Shown here: positions 3,364 through 21,858 of the stretch, piece after piece
How the letters are laid out: the number at the start of each line of letters is the position of its first letter
How positions within the stretch are numbered: the first letter of the stretch is position 1
Notes under the pieces: generated by a model
What the model saw: the letters and a program-made list of their open reading frames with translations, nothing else
Databases searched by the model: none
Told to the model about the DNA's origin: nothing
Translations under genes and position numbers: made by a program
DNA from: Clostridia bacterium
GTDB lineage: Bacteria; Bacillota; Clostridia; Oscillospirales; CAG-272
Assembly: GCA_017411605.1 (NCBI GenBank)
Contig: JAFQPR010000097.1
Location: 1 to 41,399, forward strand
Length of the DNA stretch: 41,399 bases
Direction of reading: 5' to 3'

Positions 3364-3415
3364 AAAAACAACCTTACGCACCGTTATCAAAATTGTTTGG
3401 GCGTAAGGTTGTTTT
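3364..3415 (-). terminator. Terminator after microprotein 1
   Basis: Perfect 15-bp arms (AAAACAACCTTACGC and complement) flank a 21-nt loop. On the minus strand the stem runs into GTTTTTAT. It closes the GH95-microprotein unit about 28 bp after the microprotein stop. Confidence 0.85.
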
Positions 3416-3442
3416 CGTTTGCGCCGGAATTTACCCGAGTAA

Positions 3443-3574
3443 TTAACTCAAGTCAAGATCCCAGATGCCGTCCACCTCATCCTTCGGCGTAGTTTCGGTT
3501 CCGGGTGAAGTTGTGATAATATCTTTGCTGTCAAGCTTTTTTATCTCGATTTCGGGTGCAAAATATTTTTTCAC
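3443..3574 (-). CDS. GH95-linked microprotein 1
   Basis: This is a 43-residue peptide starting at a GTG, with GAGGAGG placed about 7 nt upstream, 16 bases after the stop of the 2298-residue GH95 gene. It begins MKKYFAPEIEIKKLDS, has the core KDIITTSPGTETTPK and ends DGIWDLDLS. A second copy lies in the same place behind the other GH95 gene (15860-15994), identical over the 15-residue core and over DGIWDLD. This conservation, the ribosome binding site and the terminator directly after make it a real gene. It has no signal peptide, membrane helix or cysteine, and the C-terminal half is acidic. The function is unknown. An accessory peptide or a RiPP-like precursor are possible ideas, but no RiPP-modifying enzyme is evident nearby. 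Confidence 0.82.
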   Translation of the reverse strand: MKKYFAPEIEIKKLDSKDIITTSPGTETTPKDEVDGIWDLDLS

Positions 3575-3590
3575 TTTTCTATCCTCCTCA

Positions 3591-6500
3591 TTAAAAAGCA
3601 AGAGAATCGTAATAGTCGAATATTGCATCGAACGCGCCTATATCAAAGAGTCTTTCGAATATGATATTTCCAATAACTGCGTATCCGATAGCATTCGGAT
3701 GGCACCTGTCCGCTATAAGAAGTGTTGAAACCGAGCCCTCGATTATATTTGCCTGTACAGATACAATATCTTCCTCGGAATAGCCCGCAAATCTGTAAGA
3801 GTCCTCTTTGGAATTGAGCTCGTTGCCCATATTGATATAACGATCACCCCAACGTTCAGTAAGGGCTTCAGTTATCGCCTTTCTCGATTCGGTAGTTCCC
3901 GAGGTTGAAGAAATGATAAGGAAATATTCGGGATTACCGCATGCTGTGAGAATCTCCACCTGCTGCTTTATCAGCTCGTCAAAATTGGTATATCCGCCGT
4001 TCTCACCCATAAAGATAATGCAGGTCCTGCCATCGTAAACGTATGAGGATGACGTAATAACGCGCGCTCCGGAAACGAAGTCTAACGTATCGGTATCGCC
4101 GTCTGTTCTGGTAAATGTATATTCCAGCAGACTGTAATCGCAGGTCATAACGTTTGTTCCCGATGGAGCATCAGCTTTAAGCGCCATCGAAATGGAGCCT
4201 GAAACGCTTATCTCTTCACCGAAAGAATTTTTGCCTACGATAGTTATGGGGTTTAACGTGCTTGCATTACCCTGGCGTAAAATACCGAGTCTGCCCACCA
4301 ATGAGGACTGAGCCAGAGGAATTACTACAGGGAAATCCGAAATACTGACCGCACCGTCAAGATAGAGGTAGTAGGTCTCGGTATCCGCCCTCGATGCGAT
4401 AGTTGCAGAGGTTTCGCCTCCAACACCGCAGTTTGCAACGTTGATACCGCCGTATATTTTCTGAGATATAAGATTTTTGAGCGTATTTACGTAGTTCGTT
4501 CCGCTTGCAGCTCCGCCGAGTGCCACGAGATCTATACCGTACTCGTTTGCAGCTGTGATATTACTTCCGCCCGATCCTGCTGTGATAGAATCACCCCAGC
4601 ATACGATATTCGAAAGCTTTTGGCTTACGACCTCTTTGTTCACGTTTTGAGGTATCGCTTTATAAACTACGTTAATATTCTCGTTTTCGTCAGCTGTGCC
4701 TTTTATATAAAGGTCGCGCGTATAGTAACCGGATACCGCGGGGGAGGGAACGGAAAATTCCGTTCCCACGGCTAGTCTCATAGACTTTGAGTTTGCGAGA
4801 GACTTTCCACTCTCATCGGTAAAGTTTACAGTAACGACAACGCTGTTTTTGAAATCTCTCGCACTCTGGCAGTATTTCCAGAAGCGTTCTACGAGACTTG
4901 TAAGCTTTTCGTTATTCTGAGCTTTTGCCCAATTATGATACGATGCAATATGATAGCTTCCGGCATACTCGCCGTTTATCTTATAAGTGATAGTTTCGCA
5001 CATTGCGTATGCGTAAATGTCAAGAACGATATAAGTCTTATCACCGTCGGTTATAACTTCGGCGTTTAATCTTCTTCCGCCTATAAAGAATTCATAAGCC
5101 TCGGCAGGCGCGCTTCCGTCAATGCAGAATTTGAGTGCGGGCGTTGAAGTAAGCGCGAACGTTACGGAAGAAAGTCCCATAGAAGGTGCTTCTGTGCTGC
5201 CTTCTGCAGTATAAGGTGCCGTTTCATCGTATCTTTCGCCTATAATTGCATTGATCTTTTCGATAGTGCCGTCCGTATCGCTATCGAAATAATTGTAAGC
5301 AGCTCTTATGTATGAGAGAACGTCGCGGAGTATCTGCTTTTCAACTTCGGTTCCGGAAGCAAAAATGGAATTTGCATATTTTGTAACGGAGAAGCTGAAT
5401 CTGCCCGTTGCGGTAGAATCTCCAAAGGGTATTTTAACCGCAAGAGAAACGGTTCTTGCCGCACTCTTCGCATCAAGAGTTACCTGCATACGGTAAAAGT
5501 CTTTACCGCCGATCGTTACTATTTGAGATTCAAGCAGAGATAGATCGGTATAGCTCGTTCCGTCAAGCGTAAATTCAAGAGTATCGTCTTTTGGAACGTA
5601 GATATTCATTACGATGCTTGAATCAAGCGTGATACTTATCTTAGGAACGTAACCCGAGGAATTTAATGCATCCTTTTTGGCAGTTTCATAGTAAGCGTTC
5701 ATTTCTTCTGTGTAAGCAATAGCCTTTTCTTCCGTAAGCTTAAGATCGGTAAGATAATCGCGGAAGTCTGCCATCTTGGCGTTATGATCGTCACTTGAAA
5801 TATTGAGCTCTGAAAGTTTTTCGTAAGCGGTTATCATTTCGGAGCGATCTGCGGGAGCGGTAGTCATAGCGTATCCCGTGCATCTGATCTCTGTGAGTGT
5901 AACGTATTGATTGGAGAGAGCGGTAGCGGAAAATCTTATCTTTTCTGCTGCAACACCGCTGAGATTTATTTCTATCCACTCGTCTTCAACGCCAGTACCG
6001 CCGTTTGAAACCTTAAAAGCAGCCAGCTCGTCATTTGTAGCTATCGTCTTGAACGTTCTCCACGCGCCGTCAAAGTATACTTCAAACTTCCAATTTTCAC
6101 CGGTGTTAATGTATGCTTTATTGAAAGCGTAAAGCTTAAGATTGTTGAGTAGATAAACACCGTCAAATTCAAGCGTTGCCTCAAACGCACCGCTCTTTTT
6201 TGAGGAATATCTGCCTACGCTTGAAGTTTTGGATATAACACCGTCTGTGAGCTTATCGTAATTATACGTTGTGTCGTTTGCTACGGGCTGAGATCCGATG
6301 AATTCAAAGCCTTCAAGTATATTATCGCTATAAACCGCAAAGGTTTCTGCGCTTGTAGCGGAGCATTTTATCTCTGTAAGAGTAACGTAATTGCCGGTGG
6401 TTGCTTTTGCGGAAATTCTGAGCTTTTCTGCGGCAGCCTTGCCAAGATCAACCTCATACCATTCGCTATCGGCAGCGCTTCCGCCGTTAGAAACGAGAGA

Positions 6501-9500
6501 TTCTCCGAGTTCAGCGTTAGTCACAGTCTTGACCGTTGTCCACTTTCCGTCAAGATATACCTCAAATACCCAGTTGTCGCCCGCATTTGAGAGAAGGTTG
6601 CTGAATGTGTAGATCTTGAAAGTATCAAGTAGATAAACCTTGTCAAATTCTATAGTAGCGGCAAATTTTCCGTTCTTTTGCGATGAATATCTGCCAACCT
6701 TCCAATCGGTTGATATAATACCGTCAATAAGCTTATCGTAGGTGAAAATGTCACCTTGTGTATCATGAACAAAGGATGGCTCAGAGCCTGTAATAGCCTG
6801 TCCGGTAAGTACGTTGCTAACACTTTCTTCAACAACAGATCCATAGCACTCGGCTTCATAGAACGTTACGGTATCACCGGGGAGAGGATCACTGTGGAAC
6901 CTTAGCTTGCTTCCGCTGATTCCGCCAAGCTCGAATACGAGCCAGGTACCGGATTTTGTTGAGTCGTTTACTTTGATATATTTTGCTTGAAGCTCTTCGT
7001 TGGTAAGATTTGCATAAACGGGAATCCATTCACCGTTCGAATAGACTTCAATCGTAAAGTTTGTACCGGCTTGAGCTTTAGTTTTATTGTAAAGGTAGAA
7101 TCTGAGCTCGGTGAGCATATAATCGCGCTCAAGATCTATAGTAGCCTCTGCATACTGAGTTACCGCGGGGTTAGGCTCGGTATCGGTTGCAGCTGCGGTT
7201 TTTTTTGTAGAGAATCGTCCGTTTTTGGAATTCGACGTATCGATTATACCGTCTGTCAGCTTTGAATATTCATATCCCGTGGTAGGAGTTGCTTTTTTAT
7301 CGGTAGATTCAACGAATATCTTATCCTTGAAAACGTTTTCGTTAACGATTGCCGAAGAGGATGTGATATACGTTACCTCGATCAGCTCTGATTCCTCAGC
7401 TTGATAGTAGGAAATAACCGATACGGCATAGGATTTTCCGTCGCTGTAATCAGCTGCTGTGAGAACGGGAGCCATACTCTCGGAAATAAGAGTGTATCCG
7501 TCGCCGTTTGTGTTCTTTTCGTAGAGTCTGTATTTTGCGGTATTTCCGTTTGCTTTTATAACAACCTGGAGCTCGTCGGATTCAAGAACGTAACCGCGTA
7601 TTTTATCGATTGAAGCCGCAGTATCTATGGGATTGGAATAGCAAAGCGTTCTTTTGCTTTCCGTATCGCCCTTAACCGCAGTAACAACGAATGTCATTCT
7701 TGCGTTTGCATCCTCGTTTGCTGGAGTGTAGGTAATTGAGGTGGATTCTGTGTTTGCAATAAGACTGTAGGTGGCAGAATTCTCAATTGCAACGGATACG
7801 TTATAGCTATCAGCACCTTCAACAGGTGACCAAACAAGATTGAAATCTCCGAATTCCTCGGCTCTCGAATAATTAAGAACTTGGGGAGCATCAATTTTTT
7901 CAGCAGGTGTAAAACCGGAAATAATATAAGTTTCTCCTGCTTCTGTTGCAAATCTTATAGCATTGTTTTCGTCTACCGTATAGGCTACGCGAGCTCCGTT
8001 AGAAGCTTTAACTACGGTTGCTTTGTCAATAGAGTAATAAAGAATTGCCGCTTCGTTACCTGTTTTTGAGAGTACGTTGAGCGTTTTTGCGGTTCCGTTT
8101 TCCCAGATTGTACTAACCTCAAAGCCGCCCTCTGCGCAAAGCCCTGTATAAGAGCCCTCGGACCAATTGGCGGGAAGTGCCGCTAAAGGCTCGATATATC
8201 CGCTGTTGCTCTGCAGAAGCATTTCTGCCATACCTGCGGTAACACCGAGGCTTGCGTCGATCTGATATACGCCCCATAGCCTTGTGAAAAGGTTAGGGAA
8301 GGTAACTCTTGAAAGAAGCTCATCAACTCTTTCTCTTGCTTGATCACCGTCTTTAGCTCTCGCATAAAGACCTGCCTTGTGAGCATATACCCATCCGCCG
8401 GTGGTGTTTTCTCCGCGGCCGTCAAGGGTAACAAGCGCCGCATCGATCCATGCGGGAGTGTTGGAATTTATAATATTTCCGGGATAAAGTCCCACGAGCT
8501 GAGAGATATGTCTGTGGCTGGGATCATCACCGACAGAACCGTAATAATCCTCCTCGCGGAATTCCTTTATCTGTCCCGAAAGACCAACGTGAATGGGATC
8601 GTATTTATCGATCTGCTCCATAACCGTTTTGAGCACGGAATATTCCTCGGTGGAAAGAAGAGCCTCGTCTGTAAGGTCTATTCCTGCCTCCTCGGCAAGA
8701 AGCAATGTGTGATAATTGTTAAGGTAAGCAAACGTCTGAGCGTATGTTGTACCGACCGTATAGTACCATACGCCGTTAACGTGTACCTCGGGGGAATCCG
8801 AATAAGAAACGAGATAATTTCCGTCTTCATCGATTTCAACGCATTTTGTGATATATCTTGCCGCAGAGAGAAGCTTGGGAAGAACGATCTCTTTGAGGAT
8901 AGTTTCATCCTGAGTGTACTGATAATATTCCCAGTAGAGCTGTGTTGTAAATCCGAGGTTGCCCGCAGATCTGTCACTCGATATCGAATAAGCGTAATTT
9001 CCCGTACCTATTACCCATCCGTTGCCGCCATCTGCATCAAGCATATCGGGATTGTATTTTGAAACGTTGCTCGTAGCGTTTGCTTCCGCCTTTTGCATAA
9101 AAGCTTCATTGAATGCAACGTATGCCTCAAATGTTTCTGTAAGATTCGTCGAGAATGCGGGCCAGTAGTTCATCTGAACGTTGATATTGTGCCAATAACC
9201 CGAGCCCCATTCGGGAGAATTATACGTATTCCATACACCCTGAAGGTTTGCGGGAAGAGCTCCTGCGCGTGAAGACGCGATAAGCTGATATCTTCCGTAT
9301 TGGAAGAGCAGCGTCTCAAGATAAGTGCTTTTATAACCAGATTTGTAGCTCTCAAGAAGCTCATCTGTGGTTACCGCAAAATCCGCCTCATTGCATCCGA
9401 GATCAAGAGTTACTCTTCCGAAAAGCTCGGAATGATCCGCTACGTGTGCTTCTTTAAGAACGTCGTAAGCCTCGTTAAAGGATTTTCCTGCGATTTTGGC

Positions 9501-10487
9501 ATCTATCGCGTTCATATACGTTTCAACCTTGACTCTCGTATCTTGAAGATCGGTATTAAATGTAGGTTTATTTTTGTCGCTAGTTGTGAATACCTCGCTT
9601 GAAAGCTCATAATCGGTACCGAGAGTTACTACGATATACGCGCTGTTTGCTCCGTTAACGGCTATAGTTCCGTCTGTATCGGTTATAGAAGTTCCGTCGG
9701 TATCATTATATGTATGCTGAGTTGTGGAAGCGGTAACTGTTCCGCCATCGGTATAGACTTTATAAATTCCAAGAAAATCAACGTCATAATATTCAAGCTT
9801 ACCTGCAAGCTCGATATAACCGATACCGTCCTTGACCTCGGAGGTTACAGTACCGCTCTTTCCGTATCCGTCACCTTCAACCACCATATACGATTGCTCG
9901 TAAGGGATAGTGGGACGAAGTGTAAATGAAAGCGCGCCCGCAGTATCGGCATCAAGCTTGATAACTAATGCTTTGTCGGGATAAGACGTGAAGTGTTCTC
10001 TTGAATATTTTACTCCGCCATATGTATATTCAACACCGGAAATCGCGGTGTTCATATCAAGATAACGGATATAGTCCGATACGTCGGTGTGTCCAAAGTC
10101 GATGAATGTTTCGGAGAAGTTATTAAGTCCTCCGTAAGAATCGTCATATCCTTCGGGCTTAGCTCTTTTGTTTGCAAGCGTTTTTTCGGTTATCTGAATC
10201 CTTTCCGTTACGGTTCTGCCAAAAACGTTAGCGCCGAAATATCCGTTTCCTATAGGAAGCGACCATTGCTGCCAGCCCTCGTCATAACCGGTAACGGGGG
10301 CGTGAGGAGAATGCTCGTTGATTTTCGGTGCCTCTTCGTCGTACCAAAGACGAAGAGGAATTTCGCTTTCACTGATAAGCACGCTATTTTCGTCATCAGC
10401 TGCTGCCGCTCGAGCGGGGAACATCCACGCAAAGCTTCCAAAGAGTAAAGCCAAGGCGCAAAAGAAACTAATAGCTCTTTTTTTCAT
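3591..10487 (-). CDS. Secreted GH95 fucosidase-like protein with discoidin and SGNH domains
   Basis: This 2298-residue exoenzyme probably removes alpha-L-fucose (or a related alpha-sugar) from host or plant glycans. A signal peptide covers residues 1 to about 28 (hydrophobic core, ARA-A cut). The GH95 module spans about 40-860, with N434-I-N436 matching the catalytic Asn pair of family GH95, SPE with E567 as likely general acid, and H658-R-H660. Then come fibronectin III-like domains (about 866-1040), three discoidin/CBM32-like domains (about 1050-1546), a helical linker, a module shared with the other GH95 protein (about 1612-1885), a MucBP-like strand domain, and an SGNH hydrolase (about 1960-2298) with GDSIT, GVGGE, GEN and DRCH-P blocks. 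No LPXTG, SLH or dockerin is seen. AAGGAG precedes the ATG. It faces an AraC gene. GH95 enzymes alone have about 750-800 residues. Family assignment is firm; the substrate is inferred. Confidence 0.9.
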   Translation of the reverse strand: MKKRAISFFCALALLFGSFAWMFPARAAAADDENSVLISESEIPLRLWYDEEAPKINEHSPHAPVTGYDEGWQQWSLPIGNGYFGANVFGRTVTERIQITEKTLANKRAKPEGYDDSYGGLNNFSETFIDFGHTDVSDYIRYLDMNTAISGVEYTYGGVKYSREHFTSYPDKALVIKLDADTAGALSFTLRPTIPYEQSYMVVEGDGYGKSGTVTSEVKDGIGYIELAGKLEYYDVDFLGIYKVYTDGGTVTASTTQHTYNDTDGTSITDTDGTIAVNGANSAYIVVTLGTDYELSSEVFTTSDKNKPTFNTDLQDTRVKVETYMNAIDAKIAGKSFNEAYDVLKEAHVADHSELFGRVTLDLGCNEADFAVTTDELLESYKSGYKSTYLETLLFQYGRYQLIASSRAGALPANLQGVWNTYNSPEWGSGYWHNINVQMNYWPAFSTNLTETFEAYVAFNEAFMQKAEANATSNVSKYNPDMLDADGGNGWVIGTGNYAYSISSDRSAGNLGFTTQLYWEYYQYTQDETILKEIVLPKLLSAARYITKCVEIDEDGNYLVSYSDSPEVHVNGVWYYTVGTTYAQTFAYLNNYHTLLLAEEAGIDLTDEALLSTEEYSVLKTVMEQIDKYDPIHVGLSGQIKEFREEDYYGSVGDDPSHRHISQLVGLYPGNIINSNTPAWIDAALVTLDGRGENTTGGWVYAHKAGLYARAKDGDQARERVDELLSRVTFPNLFTRLWGVYQIDASLGVTAGMAEMLLQSNSGYIEPLAALPANWSEGSYTGLCAEGGFEVSTIWENGTAKTLNVLSKTGNEAAILYYSIDKATVVKASNGARVAYTVDENNAIRFATEAGETYIISGFTPAEKIDAPQVLNYSRAEEFGDFNLVWSPVEGADSYNVSVAIENSATYSLIANTESTSITYTPANEDANARMTFVVTAVKGDTESKRTLCYSNPIDTAASIDKIRGYVLESDELQVVIKANGNTAKYRLYEKNTNGDGYTLISESMAPVLTAADYSDGKSYAVSVISYYQAEESELIEVTYITSSSAIVNENVFKDKIFVESTDKKATPTTGYEYSKLTDGIIDTSNSKNGRFSTKKTAAATDTEPNPAVTQYAEATIDLERDYMLTELRFYLYNKTKAQAGTNFTIEVYSNGEWIPVYANLTNEELQAKYIKVNDSTKSGTWLVFELGGISGSKLRFHSDPLPGDTVTFYEAECYGSVVEESVSNVLTGQAITGSEPSFVHDTQGDIFTYDKLIDGIISTDWKVGRYSSQKNGKFAATIEFDKVYLLDTFKIYTFSNLLSNAGDNWVFEVYLDGKWTTVKTVTNAELGESLVSNGGSAADSEWYEVDLGKAAAEKLRISAKATTGNYVTLTEIKCSATSAETFAVYSDNILEGFEFIGSQPVANDTTYNYDKLTDGVISKTSSVGRYSSKKSGAFEATLEFDGVYLLNNLKLYAFNKAYINTGENWKFEVYFDGAWRTFKTIATNDELAAFKVSNGGTGVEDEWIEINLSGVAAEKIRFSATALSNQYVTLTEIRCTGYAMTTAPADRSEMITAYEKLSELNISSDDHNAKMADFRDYLTDLKLTEEKAIAYTEEMNAYYETAKKDALNSSGYVPKISITLDSSIVMNIYVPKDDTLEFTLDGTSYTDLSLLESQIVTIGGKDFYRMQVTLDAKSAARTVSLAVKIPFGDSTATGRFSFSVTKYANSIFASGTEVEKQILRDVLSYIRAAYNYFDSDTDGTIEKINAIIGERYDETAPYTAEGSTEAPSMGLSSVTFALTSTPALKFCIDGSAPAEAYEFFIGGRRLNAEVITDGDKTYIVLDIYAYAMCETITYKINGEYAGSYHIASYHNWAKAQNNEKLTSLVERFWKYCQSARDFKNSVVVTVNFTDESGKSLANSKSMRLAVGTEFSVPSPAVSGYYTRDLYIKGTADENENINVVYKAIPQNVNKEVVSQKLSNIVCWGDSITAGSGGSNITAANEYGIDLVALGGAASGTNYVNTLKNLISQKIYGGINVANCGVGGETSATIASRADTETYYLYLDGAVSISDFPVVIPLAQSSLVGRLGILRQGNASTLNPITIVGKNSFGEEISVSGSISMALKADAPSGTNVMTCDYSLLEYTFTRTDGDTDTLDFVSGARVITSSSYVYDGRTCIIFMGENGGYTNFDELIKQQVEILTACGNPEYFLIISSTSGTTESRKAITEALTERWGDRYINMGNELNSKEDSYRFAGYSEEDIVSVQANIIEGSVSTLLIADRCHPNAIGYAVIGNIIFERLFDIGAFDAIFDYYDSLAF

Positions 10488-15859: not shown

Positions 15860-15994
15860 TCAGTTTGAAATGTCAAGATCCCAGATGCCGTCGTTATCTT
15901 CCTTCGGTGTAGTCTCGGTACCGGGCGATGTCGTAATGATATCCTTTGCGCCGATCTCAATTATTTCAAGCGCGGGATTCGTATATTCTTTCAT
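15860..15994 (-). CDS. GH95-linked microprotein 2
   Basis: This 44-residue peptide starts at ATG with AAGGAGG about 8 nt upstream, 13 bases after the stop of GH95 2. It begins MKEYTNPALEIIEIGA, contains the core KDIITTSPGTETTPK and ends DGIWDLDISN. The core and DGIWDLD are identical to microprotein 1, while the N-terminal part differs at about half of its positions. Selection therefore acts on the middle and the end. There is no signal peptide, helix long enough to span a membrane, or cysteine. Its place as last gene before a terminator is the same as in the other unit. The function is unknown. Confidence 0.85.
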   Translation of the reverse strand: MKEYTNPALEIIEIGAKDIITTSPGTETTPKEDNDGIWDLDISN

Positions 15995-16007
15995 TATTTT
16001 GACCTCC

Positions 16008-19000
16008 TTATTCCGGAACTACCGAATTTTTGTAATCTCTAGCGCTTTGGCAGTATTTCCAGAAGCGTGCTACGAGATTTGTAAGGTTATCGTTATTCTG
16101 AGTCTTAGACCATTCGTAGTATGCATTGATATGGAAGCTGCCGGCCTCCGTGCCGTCCACCGTGTAAGCAACGGTTTCGCAGAGTGCGTAAGCATATACG
16201 TCTATATCAATGTATTTGCCATCCTCAGACGTTTCCGTCTTAACACGAGTACCGTCTATAAAGAACTCGTACTTACTTGCATCCGCACCGTCTGCAAGAT
16301 AGAATCTCATCGCGGGAGTTCCGTCAAGCACGAAGGTTGCGCTTTTAAGTCCGTTCGTTTCAGCAGTAGCACTTCCATCTATTGTAGGTGCGTTGTTTTC
16401 ATCGTAAGTGTCACCGAGAATTGCATTGATCTTTGCTATAGCTTCCGCATCGTTAGTCTTGAAGTAAGCGTATGCCGATCTTACGTAAGAGAGAACGTCT
16501 TTAACGAGAATCTTTTCTGTTTCAGCGCCGCCGGAAAGCACCTTTTCGGCATATTTGATAACGCTGAACGTGAATGTTCCCGTAGCGGTCTTTTCTCCGA
16601 CGGTTAAGTTCACCTTGAGTGTTATTTCTCTTGCGGCTTCTTTAGCGGAAAGCGGAATAGAAACAAGATAATAGTTCTCGCCCTCAAGCGTTACTGTTTT
16701 TACATTGTATTCGCTCTGCGCTTTACCATCAAGTATAAAACCGTTAAGGTATGTCTTTTGAGGCACGTATACGTTGAGAATAAGATCTCTATCAAGAGTG
16801 AGGCTCATTTTTGGTACGAAGTTAATGTCTGCAATTTCTTTAGGCATTAATCTATAAATAACCTCATCTCCAATTTCGTAAATTTTAACAAATACCGCAT
16901 AACCATTAACTAATGCAAATTTATCGGTAGGTGCAGAAAGTTCTTTTTTAATGATTAAACAGCTATAATTTCCTTCGTTTTCTTTGCTGTAAATTACGCT
17001 ATCATTTCCGTCATTGAATACGTTTAATTTAAGTATCGAAGTATCAAAGGTATAGAATTTAAACGTACCGCCAACTATTTCTGCATTTACGTTTACTACA
17101 TTGGATGGGTCATAGAAATTAAATATTTTTTGAGTTTTACCCGCCGGTGCATTGCTTGCAAAATCGAAATCACAGTTATTAAATATGAAGTTAACTGTAC
17201 CGCCTCCGTTTTGCCTATTGTTATGAATAATCCTGAATAGAGGCTCTGTCGAATTTGAATTTGTTGCATATCCGAGAGTTACGTTATCCACCGTAACGTT
17301 AAATACCTTTTTTGATACAGCTATGTTGTTGACGTAAACAAAGCTGAATACCGAGTGAGTATTTGTAAGAAGCTTCCCGTTCTTTATTATAAGATTGGTA
17401 GTTTCTACGAGCGCTCCGCTTGTAAGATTTGATACAAGGTGGAATAGGTTGGCTGAGTTCGTAATAGTATGACTTCCGAGATCAACAACAATCGTTCCGG
17501 CGGCATCTGTAAAAGTATCGTTTGGCGCAGCGGTATTCGCATAATCACGTCTCAATAGGATATTTACCGTCTTGCCGTTTACACCGTTGCCCGCAACTTC
17601 ATTTATTGCCGCTTGCGAAGCTTCCTTCCAAGTAGCATAAGCTCCAACGAACGTGCGGTCTTCTTTGAATACTGCAAACGGATAGTCGAGCACGGACGCG
17701 GTAGATTTTCCGATTGTTCCGTATTCAGTTTCAAGGCTTATGAGCTCGTAGTAATCTTTCGTGCCATCGGTTGAAACTTTACAGAAGTATCTGATACCGT
17801 TTTCGGTCTCATATTCGTATGATACAATAGCCGCACCGGAATTCATTTCAAGAGTCGTATATTTCTCGTTGCTGTCGGGAAGATATTTTACTGTATCATT
17901 TCCGTTATTTAATACGTACAATTTGATACTAGAGGTATCAAGAGTATTGAACTTGAATGTTCCGGCGTATATTTCTGCATTTACGTTAACTAAATTCTTT
18001 GCATCGTACAAGTTGAATATTGAAAGTACTTTACCGGAAGGTGCGTTAGTAACAAAATCAAAATCGCAGTTGAAGAATTTGAAGTTAACAGTTTCGCCGC
18101 CGTTTTCTCTGGTTTCGTTAACAGTTCTGAACAAAGGAACATTTGTATTAGTGCCCGATGCATAACCTATATCAACGTTATCAACAGAAACGTTAAATAT
18201 TTTAGCTGAAACCGCTGTGTTATTAACGTATAGAAAACTAAATAATGCGTGAGTTTTTGCGAGAAGAGTTCCGTTTTTAATAACAATATTAGTTTCGTTT
18301 ACGAGAGCTCCGCTTGTAAGATTTGATACGAGGTGGAATAGGTTGGATGAGTTCGTAATAATATGACTTCCGATGTCAATAACTATGCTTCCGCCCGCAT
18401 CTGTGATAGTATCGGGAGCTCCTTCTGTATTTTCGTAATCTCTTCTTAAGAGAATATTTACGGTCTGACCTTTTGCACCGTTGCCTTTTATCTGATTTGC
18501 TGCCGCTGAAGCAGCATCTTTCCAGGTTGTATATGCTCCGATAAACGTTCCGTCTTTAAATATCGCAAATGGATAGTCGAGAGCAGATGCGTATTTTGCT
18601 TCGATATTTCCGTATGCTGTAATCAGCGTCTCGGAACCTTTTATTGATGATATCATAAATAATTCGGATTCCTCGTCCTGATAGTATGAAACCGCAGATA
18701 CTGCATAATCTTTCAAAGCATCGAAATTCGCTATAAAGAAATTGGGAGTTTGAGATTCCGAAACTAAAATGTATCCTGCACTCGAAGAATTCTTTTCATA
18801 AAGTCTGTATTTTGCGGTATTCGCATTTGCTTCAACCGTGATTTGAAGCTCCCCCGATTCAAGAATCTCGGCTTCAACCCCTAAAACAGTTGCTGATGTA
18901 TCTTGTGGATTGTAATAAGCAAGAGTTCTGTCACTTTCCGTACCGTCGTTGCTTATAGCAGTAACAGCAAATGTCATTCTTGAATTTGCAAGATTTTCTT

Positions 19001-21770
19001 CTGGAGCATAGGTAAGGGAAGTATCGGTTATATTGTTTATAAGGTCGTATGTGGGAGCGTTTTCAACAGCAACGTATATGTTGTAGCTAACGGCATCCGC
19101 TATAGGCGACCAAGCAAAATTAAAATCGCCGAGTTTTTCTTCTCTTGAATAGTTAAGCGCGTCAGGTGCGTCGAGTTTATTAATCGGTGTAAAACCTGAT
19201 ATTATATAAGTTTCTGAAGCTTCTGTATCAAACGTAATAAGATTTTTGCCGGAAACAGTATAGTGAACGCTATTTCCGTCAGAACTTCTAACAACATTTG
19301 CGTTTGTTATTGTAGGATAATAAACACTAACGGGTTCTCCGCCGTTAGATTTGATATTGAACGTCTTTGCAACTCCGTTTTCCCATACTGCCGAAACCTC
19401 AAAGTTTCCTCTTGCCATAAGTCCCGTGTAAGAGCCTGTTGACCATTCATCGGGAATTGCCGCCAATGGCTCAATATATCCCTCGTGGCTCTGAAGAAGC
19501 ATTTCTGCCATACCTGCGGTAATGCCGAAGCTTGCATCAATCTGGAATATGTCCCAAAGCTTTGTGAAGAGGTTAGGGAATGCGCAGTCGGTGATGAGAC
19601 CCTTCACCATTTCATGTGCCCTATCGCCGCACTTTGTTCTTGCATAAAGTCCGGATTTGTGAGCATATACCCATCCTCCTGTGCTATTTCCGCCTTGGCG
19701 ATTTTCAAGAGTTACCTTTGCCGCATCGAGCCAAGCAGGAGTGGTGGAGTTTATAATATTACCGGGATAAAGACCGACGAGCTGAGATACGTGTCTGTGA
19801 TTAGGATCATCACCTACAGAACCATAATAGTCTTCCTCGCGAAATTCCTTTATCTGTCCCGAAAGACCTACGTGGATAGGATCGTATTTGTCGATCTGCT
19901 CCATAACGGTCTTTAGGATAGAGTATTCCTCGGAGGAAAGAAGCGAAGAATCGGCAAGATTGATTCCAAGCGCCTTTGCAGCCTCAAGTGCGTTGTAATT
20001 GTTGAGGTAAGCGAACGTCTGAGCGTAGGTAGTACCCTTGGTATAATACCAAACACCGTTAACGTGAACTTCGGGCGAATCGCAGTAAGAAACAAGATAA
20101 TTTCCGTCTTCGTCAAGCTCCACGCATTTCGTTATGTATCTTGCAGCATTAACGAGAACATCGTAAACGTGCCGAAGTATTGCGGGATTCTTAGTAAACT
20201 GATAATAATCCCAAAACAACTGAGTTGTAAAGCCAAGATTACCCGCGGAACGGTCACCGTTAATATTGTACTGATGCTGTCCGGTTCCAATAACCCAACC
20301 GTTACCTCCGTCAAGTCCAAGTTTATCCGAGTGATTTTCCTTTATATATTTCGTTGCATACGTTTCCGCCTCAGCCATGTATGCGTTGTTATAATCAACG
20401 TAAGCTTCAAACGTTTCTGAAAGATTTGTTGAGAATGCGGGCCAGTAGTTCATCTGCACGTTTATATTGTGCCAATATCCCGAGCCCCAAGGTGCTGTAT
20501 TGTAAGTATTCCATACGCCCTGAAGGTTTGCAGGAAGAGTACCGGTTCTTGATGAAGCAATAAGTAAATATCTTCCGTATTGGAAAAGAAGAGTCTCAAG
20601 ATAATTACCGTAGCCGTTGGACTTATAATTTTCTACAAGGACGTCGGTAGGTAAATTGAAATCGCTCTCACTGCAATTAAGGTCTGCACTTACCCTTCCG
20701 AAAAGCCCGTAATGATCATCAACGTGAGCTTTTTTGAGGAGATTATAAGCCTCTTCGTATGAATTATCGGTAAACTTAGTGTCAATTGCATGTATTTCGC
20801 CTTCAACCTTATCTCTGGTAAAGTTAAGACCTGTTGACATCGTGGGCCTTTTATCCAATGTACCTTTGAAAGTTTCTGTTTTCAACTGATAATCTGTTCC
20901 AAGTGTTACAACAATATAAGCCTTTGTAGCATTGTTAACTACGATCGTTCCATCAATATCACTATGCTCTTTTCCGGTAATATCGGCGTAGTTGTTTTCA
21001 ACCGTCGAAGCTTCAACTTTGCCGTCGGTATAAACCTTGTAAATGCCGAGAAAATCTATATCGTAATATCCCATCTTACCGGCGAGCTCGATGTATCCTA
21101 CGCCATCTTCCGTGACAGATGATGTTACAGTACCGGTCTTGGATTTTCCGTCTGTTTCGCTATACATATAATCCTGCTCGTATGGAATGGTAGGACGGAG
21201 TGTAAAGGAGAGTGCGCCATCCGTATCCGCATCAAGCTTTATAACGAGCGCCTTGTCGGGATAAGATATAAAATATTCTCTTGTGTATTTTACACCGTTA
21301 TACGTGTAATCGACACCGGAAACAGCAGTTTTCAGATCAAGATAACGTATGTAATCGGTAACCGCACCGGTTGTATGATTGAAATCTATGAACGTTTCGG
21401 AAAAGTTATTAAGTCCACCGCTGTTGGGACTGTATGAAAAAGGATTAGAAAGAGTTTTTTCCGTAATCTGAATTCTTTCGGTTTCGGTTCTGCCAAAAAC
21501 GTTAGCGCCGAAGTATGCGTTGCCTATTGGAAGCGACCATCTTTCCCATGCTTCGTCTGCTCCGCCGTTGGAATGGGCGTAATGCGAATGCTCGGTGCTT
21601 GTTATAGGTGCAGGTTCATCATACCAGAGTTTCAACGGTAGCTCACTCTCTTCAATGAAAATGTTGCTTTTGTTCGCAGCTGCCGCGAAGCTGATAAACT
21701 GAAACAGTATCGACATACATCCAAACAAAATCGCAAACGTGCAAAATAGACTGACAATTGTTTTTTTCAT
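16008..21770 (-). CDS. Secreted GH95 fucosidase-like protein with tandem beta-helix repeats
   Basis: This 1920-residue paralogue of the GH95 protein at 10487 is likewise probably an alpha-L-fucosidase. The chosen ATG has AGAAAGGAAAC upstream and begins a clear signal peptide (MKKTIVSLFCTFAILFG...), whereas 21 in-frame codons before it look non-coding. The GH95 module (about 30-865) keeps N435-I-N437 and E567. Fibronectin III-like domains follow (about 870-1045). Then come two tandem 297-298 residue repeats (about 1053-1646) with beta-helix-like strands (IVIDIGSHIITNSSNLFHLVSN pattern). The last 275 residues are the module shared with GH95 1, ending at a matching FWKYCQSARDYKNSV. It lacks the discoidin and SGNH parts. 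No cell-wall anchor is seen. A microprotein gene follows at once. AraC 3 faces it. Confidence 0.88.
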   Translation of the reverse strand: MKKTIVSLFCTFAILFGCMSILFQFISFAAAANKSNIFIEESELPLKLWYDEPAPITSTEHSHYAHSNGGADEAWERWSLPIGNAYFGANVFGRTETERIQITEKTLSNPFSYSPNSGGLNNFSETFIDFNHTTGAVTDYIRYLDLKTAVSGVDYTYNGVKYTREYFISYPDKALVIKLDADTDGALSFTLRPTIPYEQDYMYSETDGKSKTGTVTSSVTEDGVGYIELAGKMGYYDIDFLGIYKVYTDGKVEASTVENNYADITGKEHSDIDGTIVVNNATKAYIVVTLGTDYQLKTETFKGTLDKRPTMSTGLNFTRDKVEGEIHAIDTKFTDNSYEEAYNLLKKAHVDDHYGLFGRVSADLNCSESDFNLPTDVLVENYKSNGYGNYLETLLFQYGRYLLIASSRTGTLPANLQGVWNTYNTAPWGSGYWHNINVQMNYWPAFSTNLSETFEAYVDYNNAYMAEAETYATKYIKENHSDKLGLDGGNGWVIGTGQHQYNINGDRSAGNLGFTTQLFWDYYQFTKNPAILRHVYDVLVNAARYITKCVELDEDGNYLVSYCDSPEVHVNGVWYYTKGTTYAQTFAYLNNYNALEAAKALGINLADSSLLSSEEYSILKTVMEQIDKYDPIHVGLSGQIKEFREEDYYGSVGDDPNHRHVSQLVGLYPGNIINSTTPAWLDAAKVTLENRQGGNSTGGWVYAHKSGLYARTKCGDRAHEMVKGLITDCAFPNLFTKLWDIFQIDASFGITAGMAEMLLQSHEGYIEPLAAIPDEWSTGSYTGLMARGNFEVSAVWENGVAKTFNIKSNGGEPVSVYYPTITNANVVRSSDGNSVHYTVSGKNLITFDTEASETYIISGFTPINKLDAPDALNYSREEKLGDFNFAWSPIADAVSYNIYVAVENAPTYDLINNITDTSLTYAPEENLANSRMTFAVTAISNDGTESDRTLAYYNPQDTSATVLGVEAEILESGELQITVEANANTAKYRLYEKNSSSAGYILVSESQTPNFFIANFDALKDYAVSAVSYYQDEESELFMISSIKGSETLITAYGNIEAKYASALDYPFAIFKDGTFIGAYTTWKDAASAAANQIKGNGAKGQTVNILLRRDYENTEGAPDTITDAGGSIVIDIGSHIITNSSNLFHLVSNLTSGALVNETNIVIKNGTLLAKTHALFSFLYVNNTAVSAKIFNVSVDNVDIGYASGTNTNVPLFRTVNETRENGGETVNFKFFNCDFDFVTNAPSGKVLSIFNLYDAKNLVNVNAEIYAGTFKFNTLDTSSIKLYVLNNGNDTVKYLPDSNEKYTTLEMNSGAAIVSYEYETENGIRYFCKVSTDGTKDYYELISLETEYGTIGKSTASVLDYPFAVFKEDRTFVGAYATWKEASQAAINEVAGNGVNGKTVNILLRRDYANTAAPNDTFTDAAGTIVVDLGSHTITNSANLFHLVSNLTSGALVETTNLIIKNGKLLTNTHSVFSFVYVNNIAVSKKVFNVTVDNVTLGYATNSNSTEPLFRIIHNNRQNGGGTVNFIFNNCDFDFASNAPAGKTQKIFNFYDPSNVVNVNAEIVGGTFKFYTFDTSILKLNVFNDGNDSVIYSKENEGNYSCLIIKKELSAPTDKFALVNGYAVFVKIYEIGDEVIYRLMPKEIADINFVPKMSLTLDRDLILNVYVPQKTYLNGFILDGKAQSEYNVKTVTLEGENYYLVSIPLSAKEAAREITLKVNLTVGEKTATGTFTFSVIKYAEKVLSGGAETEKILVKDVLSYVRSAYAYFKTNDAEAIAKINAILGDTYDENNAPTIDGSATAETNGLKSATFVLDGTPAMRFYLADGADASKYEFFIDGTRVKTETSEDGKYIDIDVYAYALCETVAYTVDGTEAGSFHINAYYEWSKTQNNDNLTNLVARFWKYCQSARDYKNSVVPE
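16833..18614 (-). repeat. Tandem 0.89-kb coding repeat inside GH95 2
   Basis: Unit A runs from 18614 to 17724 and unit B from 17723 to about 16833. The period is 891 bp at the start and 894 bp after a one-codon insertion in unit B. Near 18303-18370 and 17409-17476 the DNA is almost identical over about 65 bp. Other parts have drifted, so this is an in-frame duplication with locally preserved or converted segments. Confidence 0.85.
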
Positions 21771-21826
21771 AACTTGTTTCCTTTCTGCGTTTTTAGCCTT
21801 TTTGTCGTAATCGTACAAAAATGTTG

Positions 21827-21858
21827 TTGACATATTGTAAAAAGTTTGGTAAACTTAC
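21827..21858 (+). promoter_or_regulatory. AraC 3 promoter with overlapping inverted repeat
   Basis: TTGACA (21827-21832) and TAAACT (21850-21855) are spaced by 17 bp. An inverted repeat around AAGTTT-GGT-AAACTT (within 21837-21858) covers the minus-10 region. This fits autorepression or other control of AraC 3. The pairing is seen; the regulation is inferred. Confidence 0.5.

Follow-up and report, generated by a model that had tools for sequence, protein, structure and literature searches.

The DNA analysed here, hereafter the window, is a stretch of 41,399 nucleotides that makes up contig C95 of a Clostridia bacterium genome (2.80 Mb, 82% complete). In the labels used below, G000 is the genome of the window, other G numbers are compared genomes, C numbers are contigs and L numbers are fetched loci. 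Two genes for large secreted GH95 proteins lie in the window, and each is followed on its own strand by a microgene below usual gene-calling length. The relevant features are given here one per line, with LPP standing for linear polyphosphorylated peptide.

3443..3574, minus strand: microgene 1, probable LppA-like precursor of LPP type (43 aa, GTG start; VKKYFAPEIEIKKLDSKDIITTSPGTETTPKDEVDGIWDLDLS), judged from sequence, genome copies and pN/pS
3509..3574, minus strand: predicted leader of microgene 1 (residues 1-22), with the RRE-binding motif Y4xxP7 and D18-I-I-T-T, drawn from alignments; motif from PMC13381572, cleavage point putative
3506..3508, minus strand: Ser23 codon of microgene 1, proposed phospho-acceptor
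3446..3505, minus strand: core and tail of microgene 1, PGTETTPKDEVDGIWDLDLS
3582..3589, minus strand: ribosome binding site of microgene 1, GAGGAGGA
3364..3416, minus strand: probable terminator of microgene 1, a hairpin with a long loop and a U-run after it (the 121-nt stretch folds at z -4.5)
3591..10487, minus strand: secreted GH95 protein of 2298 aa, with Pfam matches to GH95 and F5/8 type C, MucBP at the cut-off and a GDSL-like part below it
15860..15994, minus strand: microgene 2, probable LppA-like precursor of LPP type (44 aa, ATG start; MKEYTNPALEIIEIGAKDIITTSPGTETTPKEDNDGIWDLDISN), judged as for microgene 1
15926..15928, minus strand: Ser23 codon of microgene 2, proposed phospho-acceptor
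16002..16009, minus strand: ribosome binding site of microgene 2, AAGGAGGT, overlapping the GH95 stop codon
15803..15843, minus strand: intrinsic terminator behind microgene 2, an 18-pair stem and a U-run, from a terminator scan
16008..21833, minus strand: secreted GH95 protein of 1941 aa (Pfam)

The original prediction had described two short genes of 43 and 44 residues, one behind each GH95 gene, with spacings of 13-16 bp, ribosome binding sites of their own and a terminator beyond each. Both genes are real and lie where they had been placed, on the minus strand, which the prediction had not stated. The distance from GH95 stop to microgene start measures 16 bp for microgene 1 and 13 bp for microgene 2, and a purine-rich ribosome binding site precedes each. 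Transcription would end at the hairpins listed above; behind microgene 1 a scan for short-loop terminators found none downstream, so that the assignment there is to a probable long-loop hairpin. A C-terminal stretch of the form L..LV.RFWKYCQSARDYKxSV is common in large secreted microgene partners (window 16008-16130, minus strand, and many partners elsewhere in G000), and Pfam gives it no name in the partners scanned.

How far does the pair extend? Searching G000 with the microprotein at E<=10 gave 32 matches, and 24 of these reach E<=8.9e-13. The 24 strong copies are spread over numerous contigs, in most cases immediately after a large ORF, and all of them hold the core GTETTPK...DGIWD.D. The pair that had been proposed behind the GH95 genes is thus genuine, but the family reaches far beyond two copies. 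Averaged over the 276 pairs of these 24 copies, the 18 core codons give pS 0.712 and pN 0.038 (ratio 0.054), versus pS 0.598 and pN 0.330 (ratio 0.55) for the 15 N-terminal codons; the wobble positions of the core vary freely and its amino acids are constant. This conservation is protein-level purifying selection rather than recent copying, which bears out the earlier view that the core is selected and that the N-terminal part diverges more. The core of the window pair alone gives pS 0.29 and pN 0.11, and for this reason the selection claim rests on the 24 copies and not on these two. A dN/dS near 1, named in advance as evidence against a selected family, is far from the value obtained, which refers to copies within G000 and not to copies from related genomes.

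Approximately 8-10 of the G000 copies have a near-identical 57-nt spacer in the gap between large gene and microgene, with MQNSKCRMQNEKNE in frame (L004, L006, L007, L012-L014, L016 and L017; the identity figures also count the out-of-register copies L018 and L019). The pattern resembles the copying of a cassette from the 3' end of a gene, and some G000 copies did spread in this way at the DNA level. At L030 (G000 C44:24918-24968) a tail-only orphan, PKEDNDGIWDFDLG, lies near a full copy at C44:25086. Readthrough or frameshifting onto the large protein was considered and rejected, as the frame relation varies among copies.

A 16-row profile found relatives of the microgenes in 18 genomes, G000 counted, of a set of 40 chosen as relatives. 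A 53-row profile (A2), run on 295 genomes from 148 genera of the order, found them in 70 genomes and 45 genera. The same 53-row profile found microgenes in five of 398 genomes in a phylum-wide draw, two of the five being G000 and another genome of the order. The order seems to consist of uncultured gut Clostridia, judging from the named relatives of the kinase described below, most of which are MAGs from the ruminant gut that bear the labels Clostridia, Oscillospiraceae or Lachnospiraceae. The general form of the microprotein is Y-x-x-P-[E]-h-E-h-h-x-h-x-x-x-D-[IV]-[IV]-T-[TA]-S followed by a variable tail, often acidic and frequently with a late Trp. One leader that carries Y4 and P7 reads MKEYTNPALEIIEIGAKDIITT. 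Y4 is nearly invariant (at least 90% of the 53 alignment rows) and YxxP is present in both window copies; the proline is replaced by A or another residue in part of the family. The serine that follows the leader occurs in 53 of 53 rows. A pattern [DE]hhxxS was found by script in 157 of 163 unique microproteins from the fetched loci, or 158 with L063 read by eye, a count biased upwards because the search profile already holds the serine; it is absent from the expected place in five (L185, L186, L235 and two in L267).

The microprotein itself matches no Pfam or NCBIfam family at E<=10 and so is unnamed in those databases. The original prediction had also seen no known motif in it, and this did not hold, as the N-terminal YxxP is the leader motif of RiPP precursors of the lasso and LPP types (PMC13381572). 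Within a genome the tail is nearly fixed in G000 and in G005 (nine G005 copies read), and it varies by operon in G014 and G275. At L105 (G012 C26) a second microgene-like ORF has the identical first 35 residues and another tail, and adjoins a duplicated segment on the opposite strand. On G248 C29 the coordinates of microgene and PqqD match are mirrored at both contig ends, which suggests an inverted duplication or an assembly artefact.

The neighbours of the microgenes are predominantly large secreted-like proteins. By a crude hydrophobic-stretch rule (not SignalP), 99 of 127 microgenes with context have a secreted-like ORF of at least 150 aa within 250 bp on the same strand; nine have an open-ended neighbour only and 19 have neither. 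Counted by neighbour, 114 adjacent ORFs are secreted, 39 are not and 11 are open, versus 255 secreted among 745 closed-start ORFs across the loci. The recurrence of the family beside other secreted proteins, the absence of which would have spoken against it, was observed. Pfam scans of six G000 partners identified GH95 in two, an alpha-L-fucosidase match in one, Big_5 in one, a SASA-esterase with a metallophosphoesterase in another and DUF4886, LRR_5 and a metallophosphoesterase in the last; eight operon proteins from G014 and G005, partners among them, had no Pfam match over cut-off. Many operons of G014 and G275 consist of a large lipoprotein, often a protein of ~420 aa, the microgene and a secreted protein. 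The ~420-aa protein (L096:1514-2782, with similar ORFs in G014 and G275) sits between lipoprotein and microgene, has no evident signal sequence and in several cases carries an LPDIES-type motif; the one tested had no Pfam or PDB sequence match, and with that result the idea that it modifies the tail was dropped.

In many of these G014 and G275 operons the lipoprotein carries at its C-terminus the tail of the microgene from that operon, as in the pairs GGGYHAGAWS/GGGYHGGAWS, TGNWIDPNG/AGGWIDPQ and SDIDNSAWS/SDVDHSAWT (lipoprotein/microgene); no such match was found in the same genomes at L084, L085, L095, L173, L175-L178 and L182. Shuffling partners within a genome reached the observed similarity in 0 of 20,000 trials for G014 (16 pairs, leaving out L082 and two L088 microgenes, which have no usable large partner) and in 273 of 20,000 for G275 (14 pairs, including one spurious microgene hit, L180). 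Compared with neighbours from other genomes, 14 of 126 microproteins share tails at p<=0.01 where ~1.3 are expected, in G014 (8), G275 (3), G013, G109 and G276; their best partners are secreted-like in 13 cases and open-ended in one (L088). For this comparison a pattern set the start of the tail, which leaves a few leader residues in some rows, and open-ended ORFs were counted as secreted-like. The SLH partner protein in G109 ends exactly like its microgene, EGDNGTGWG. Tail sharing at p<=0.05 was found for 0 of 26 microproteins in G000. The codons of shared tails agree in part, and local gene conversion may thus contribute to the sharing. In G168 a secreted, SLH-looking ORF (L183:4472-5509, plus strand) extends in one frame, with no stop, through an entire microgene domain and has an internal ribosome binding site, which could be a natural fusion or a lost stop codon.

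What acts on these peptides? Compared with the PDB, the 53-row profile gave two weak hits only. The second, to the leader of the lasso peptide TfuA in complex with an RRE (6jx3), is not significant at E 1.2, and it was this hit that led to a search for PqqD-like RREs. A match was present in 58 of the 73 genomes searched, 57 over cut-off, and some lie in ORFs of ~460 aa rather than stand-alone; three of the 73 (G068, G112 and G168) have microgenes and the kinase described next and no PqqD match. In two genomes outside the order, G694 (L184) and G662 (L188), a microgene lies directly before a cassette of genes for an HprK-like kinase, a PqqD RRE, a SipW/S24-like peptidase, an ABC transporter and an NTP_transf_5 protein. 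Of the other G694 microgenes, that at L185 is accompanied by kinase, RRE, peptidase and NTP_transf_5 protein, and the third, at L186, has only the kinase behind it, with no RRE or peptidase seen. Cassette genes adjoin a microgene or lie one gene away in G016, G024, G064, G032, G046, G093, G137, G156 and G244, and an ABC exporter adjoins the cassette in G694, G032, G093 and G244; no G000 gene could be assigned to this function.

The kinase profile (A3) was positive in 95 of the 295 genomes, the same draw as in the microgene search. The kinase is present in 65 of 70 microgene-positive genomes (the exceptions being G092, G128, G248, G255 and G274) versus 30 of 225 in which no microgene was seen (p 1.4e-35), and by genus in 44 of 45 microgene-positive versus 14 of 103 (p 4e-24); since related genomes are not independent, these p-values overstate the association. 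Removal of eight weak kinase matches leaves 63 of 70 versus 24 of 225, and a hand count within the window's own family gives 13 of 13 microgene-positive genomes versus 6 of 17. The modelled G014 kinase (pLDDT 94.5) matches PEPCK and HprK/P, with best E values of 1.9e-6 and 3.4e-6. In G000 the corresponding genes lie on three contigs, apart from the window.

C26:6300-6998: HprK-like kinase (E 1e-77 to profile A3)
L230:8904-9182 (C80:14999): RRE, PF05402 (PqqD) over cut-off
L230:9184-9660: SipW-like peptidase directly behind the RRE, PF00717 at 25.9 bits (cut-off 23.3)
C70:17704-18405: nucleotidyltransferase, NTP_transf_5, from a family search

The peptidase calls are weak matches, PF00717 being over cut-off for G000 only and sigpep_I_arch below cut-off, and all of 20 sequences keep the motifs G.SM.P, HR and GD (the H at >=90%), in line with the Ser/His/Asp expected from LppS. 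An NTP_transf_5 protein occurs in 14 of 16 genomes including G000, and is absent in G013 and G293. The G000 kinase adjoins a Wzz/P-loop polysaccharide protein, the NTP_transf_5 gene lies beside cytidylyltransferase, LicD and glycosyltransferase genes, and Wzz genes are also near the kinase or cassette in G016, G244 and G090. This placement agrees with the association of LPP gene clusters with capsule published for Bacilli (PMC13381572).

That gene set is the one known from LPPs, which were described as LppA-K-B-S-D-N systems by Popov et al. (Nat Commun, May 2026; PMC13381572). In that work LppB is the protein that binds the YxxP leader, LppK adds phosphate to core Ser3 repeatedly but not to the S3A, S3T or S3Y variants, and LppS removes the leader; leader binding, core-serine phosphorylation and leader cleavage were demonstrated for a Bacillota homologue. 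The two systems are alike in a YxxP leader, a conserved serine soon after it and a variable core, in a discrete RRE, an HprK-like kinase, a SipW-like leader peptidase and an NTP_transf_5 protein, in a candidate MsbA-like exporter (here an ABC exporter in some relatives), in that lasso B2 was not found over cut-off (here in 16 genomes), and in machinery near capsule or exopolysaccharide genes. Asn39 and Asp77, nearly invariant in 20 RREs, correspond in the alignment to N51 and D88 of chain 9x8z_B, which are the leader-contact residues N33 and D70 of LppB at a constant offset of 18 that also fits C39, Y60 and F74 in the numbering of PMC13381572. The differences are that the leader ends in FETxxS in LPPs and in D[IV][IV]T[TA]S here, that the serine follows the tyrosine by 18 residues there and 19 here, and that the core is nearly fixed in G000 whereas in some other genomes the tail is common with neighbouring surface proteins. 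Moreover, the search for published LPP precursors, one to three per cluster, went no farther than 5 kb from the cluster. Precursors near a cluster occur here in G694, G662, G016, G032, G046 and others, whereas the machinery for the window copies is on contigs C26, C80 and C70 and the 24 strong G000 copies are dispersed, mostly behind exoenzyme genes.

Could the same leader belong to lasso-peptide precursors, with a core cyclised by an asparagine-synthetase-like enzyme after B2 cleavage? The YxxP leader would fit, the TfuA leader is the only RiPP hit of the profile in the PDB, and PqqD has matches to lasso B1 models that stay below cut-off. By itself the G000 RRE reaches E 0.029 against LppB (9x8z), and the profile of 20 RREs (A4) scores lasso B1 best at 9.6e-11, ahead of PbaB1 (9x90) at 3.5e-7 and LppB at 7.9e-7; because B1 chains outscore LppB, the RRE alone does not settle whether the system is of LPP or lasso type. 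What tells against lasso peptides is that B2 (PF13471) is over cut-off in 0 of 16 genomes, with one weak match in G293, that no cyclase was noticed by eye among the cassette-locus genes listed, and that, on inspection, the copies differ in the distance between the start of the core and an acidic ring residue, so that we regard this alternative as very improbable. Lasso peptides of the paeninodin and pseudomycoidin type (PMC13381572 and PMC7533575) likewise combine an RRE, an HprK-like kinase, a nucleotidyltransferase and a [Y/W]xxP leader; the present system differs from them by the same B2 and cyclase findings and by Tyr rather than Trp in the motif. SynChlorMet and HPr-rel-A cassettes (TIGR04248/04249 and TIGR04352/04353) also pair a PqqD-like protein with an HprK-like kinase, but every match to them falls under the curated cut-offs. 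A double-glycine export leader, a sortase signal, a graspetide and a ComX-like peptide were set aside on inspection, the pattern being unfit or not conserved in relatives.

A dedicated accessory or chaperone that serves the neighbouring secreted enzyme unmodified, in the cytosol or at the translocon, would account for the secreted-like neighbours and for those operons in which the neighbour ends in the same tail. However, it leaves the kinase co-occurrence and the cassette linkage unexplained, one conserved core would have to suit GH95, GH29, esterase and phosphoesterase partners alike, and the microgene alternates between positions behind and in front of its partner; we consider it scarcely more probable than the lasso alternative, and the chaperone role once suggested for the microproteins is not supported. 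The notion that recombination has placed copies of a DNA cassette behind genes as a neutral repeat, which would make no product of its own, draws on the shared 57-nt spacer and the orphan fragment at L030, but is virtually dismissed by the contrast between pS and pN in the core and by the conservation of Y, D and S across genera. A secreted pheromone read by a cognate regulator, of the ComX or Rgg kind, is compatible with maturation as an LPP and competes only with the proposed role. The short Trp-bearing tail, the one common product of many G000 operons and the AraC-like regulators often nearby (from inspection of their C-terminal ends) speak for it; however, on inspection, no regulator regularly accompanies the microgene as opposed to the enzyme operon, and the match of G014 and G275 tails to the operon's own lipoprotein better suits local partner recognition, which makes a pheromone improbable, if less so than an unmodified accessory.

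Taken together, the LPP gene set, the G000 parts lying apart and the agreement in polysaccharide loci make the window microgenes best read as LppA-like precursors of an LPP-type RiPP system whose machinery acts in trans, a reading from comparative sequence evidence to which we assign a probability of about 0.87. Each microgene would be translated behind its exoenzyme from its own ribosome binding site, and the leader YxxP[E]hEhhxhxxxD[IV][IV]T would be bound by the discrete PqqD-like RRE as an added beta-strand. The HprK-like kinase would then phosphorylate the near-invariant Ser23 just after the leader, which the nucleotidyltransferase may further modify. The SipW-like serine peptidase would cut the leader off at a presumed bond, and a putative ABC exporter would release the tail. 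Binding, phosphorylation, cleavage and export of these particular peptides are proposed by analogy with the LPP homologue. The trans machinery of G000 would thereby have 24 or more scattered precursors to process, whose core is nearly fixed, and as many precursors share one core, the induction of any exoenzyme operon would feed the same peptide pool.

What might the product do? We favor a surface function tied to the display of exopolysaccharide or exoenzymes over a toxin or bacteriocin, given the operon-specific tail matching, the SLH and lipoprotein partners and the machinery in polysaccharide loci. The matured peptides could possibly be a common signal or a storage form, and the role of peptide signal or secreted-enzyme accessory suggested by the original prediction is possible for the matured peptide. 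A more specific and tentative idea, to which we lend limited credence, is that they are structural parts of the cell surface, where the Trp tail, a short motif that in some genomes also ends the neighbouring lipoprotein or SLH protein, docks on the same surface partner as that protein. If so, each exoenzyme operon would supply a phosphorylated, perhaps glycan-linked peptide, the exoenzymes would possibly be coupled to the polymer, capsule or teichoic, that is encoded on either side of the machinery, and a RiPP would act as a surface tether in many operon-specific versions.

A literature search of open-licence papers found no earlier report of dispersed LPP precursors, and nothing relevant was listed on small proteins, or precursors of RiPPs, that accompany glycoside hydrolases; for the motif letters the only paper listed was an unrelated one on mosquitoes. 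What would be new relative to known LPPs is that the precursors are dispersed, matured in trans and mostly beside secreted-like proteins, a pattern that precursor hunting centred on the cluster would miss. The LPP report leaves the role of the peptides open, and the precursors described here show which genes they are encoded with, namely those for large secreted glycan-active proteins and other exoproteins. The shared tails and the machinery in polysaccharide loci make the role of LPPs testable as a question of the cell surface.
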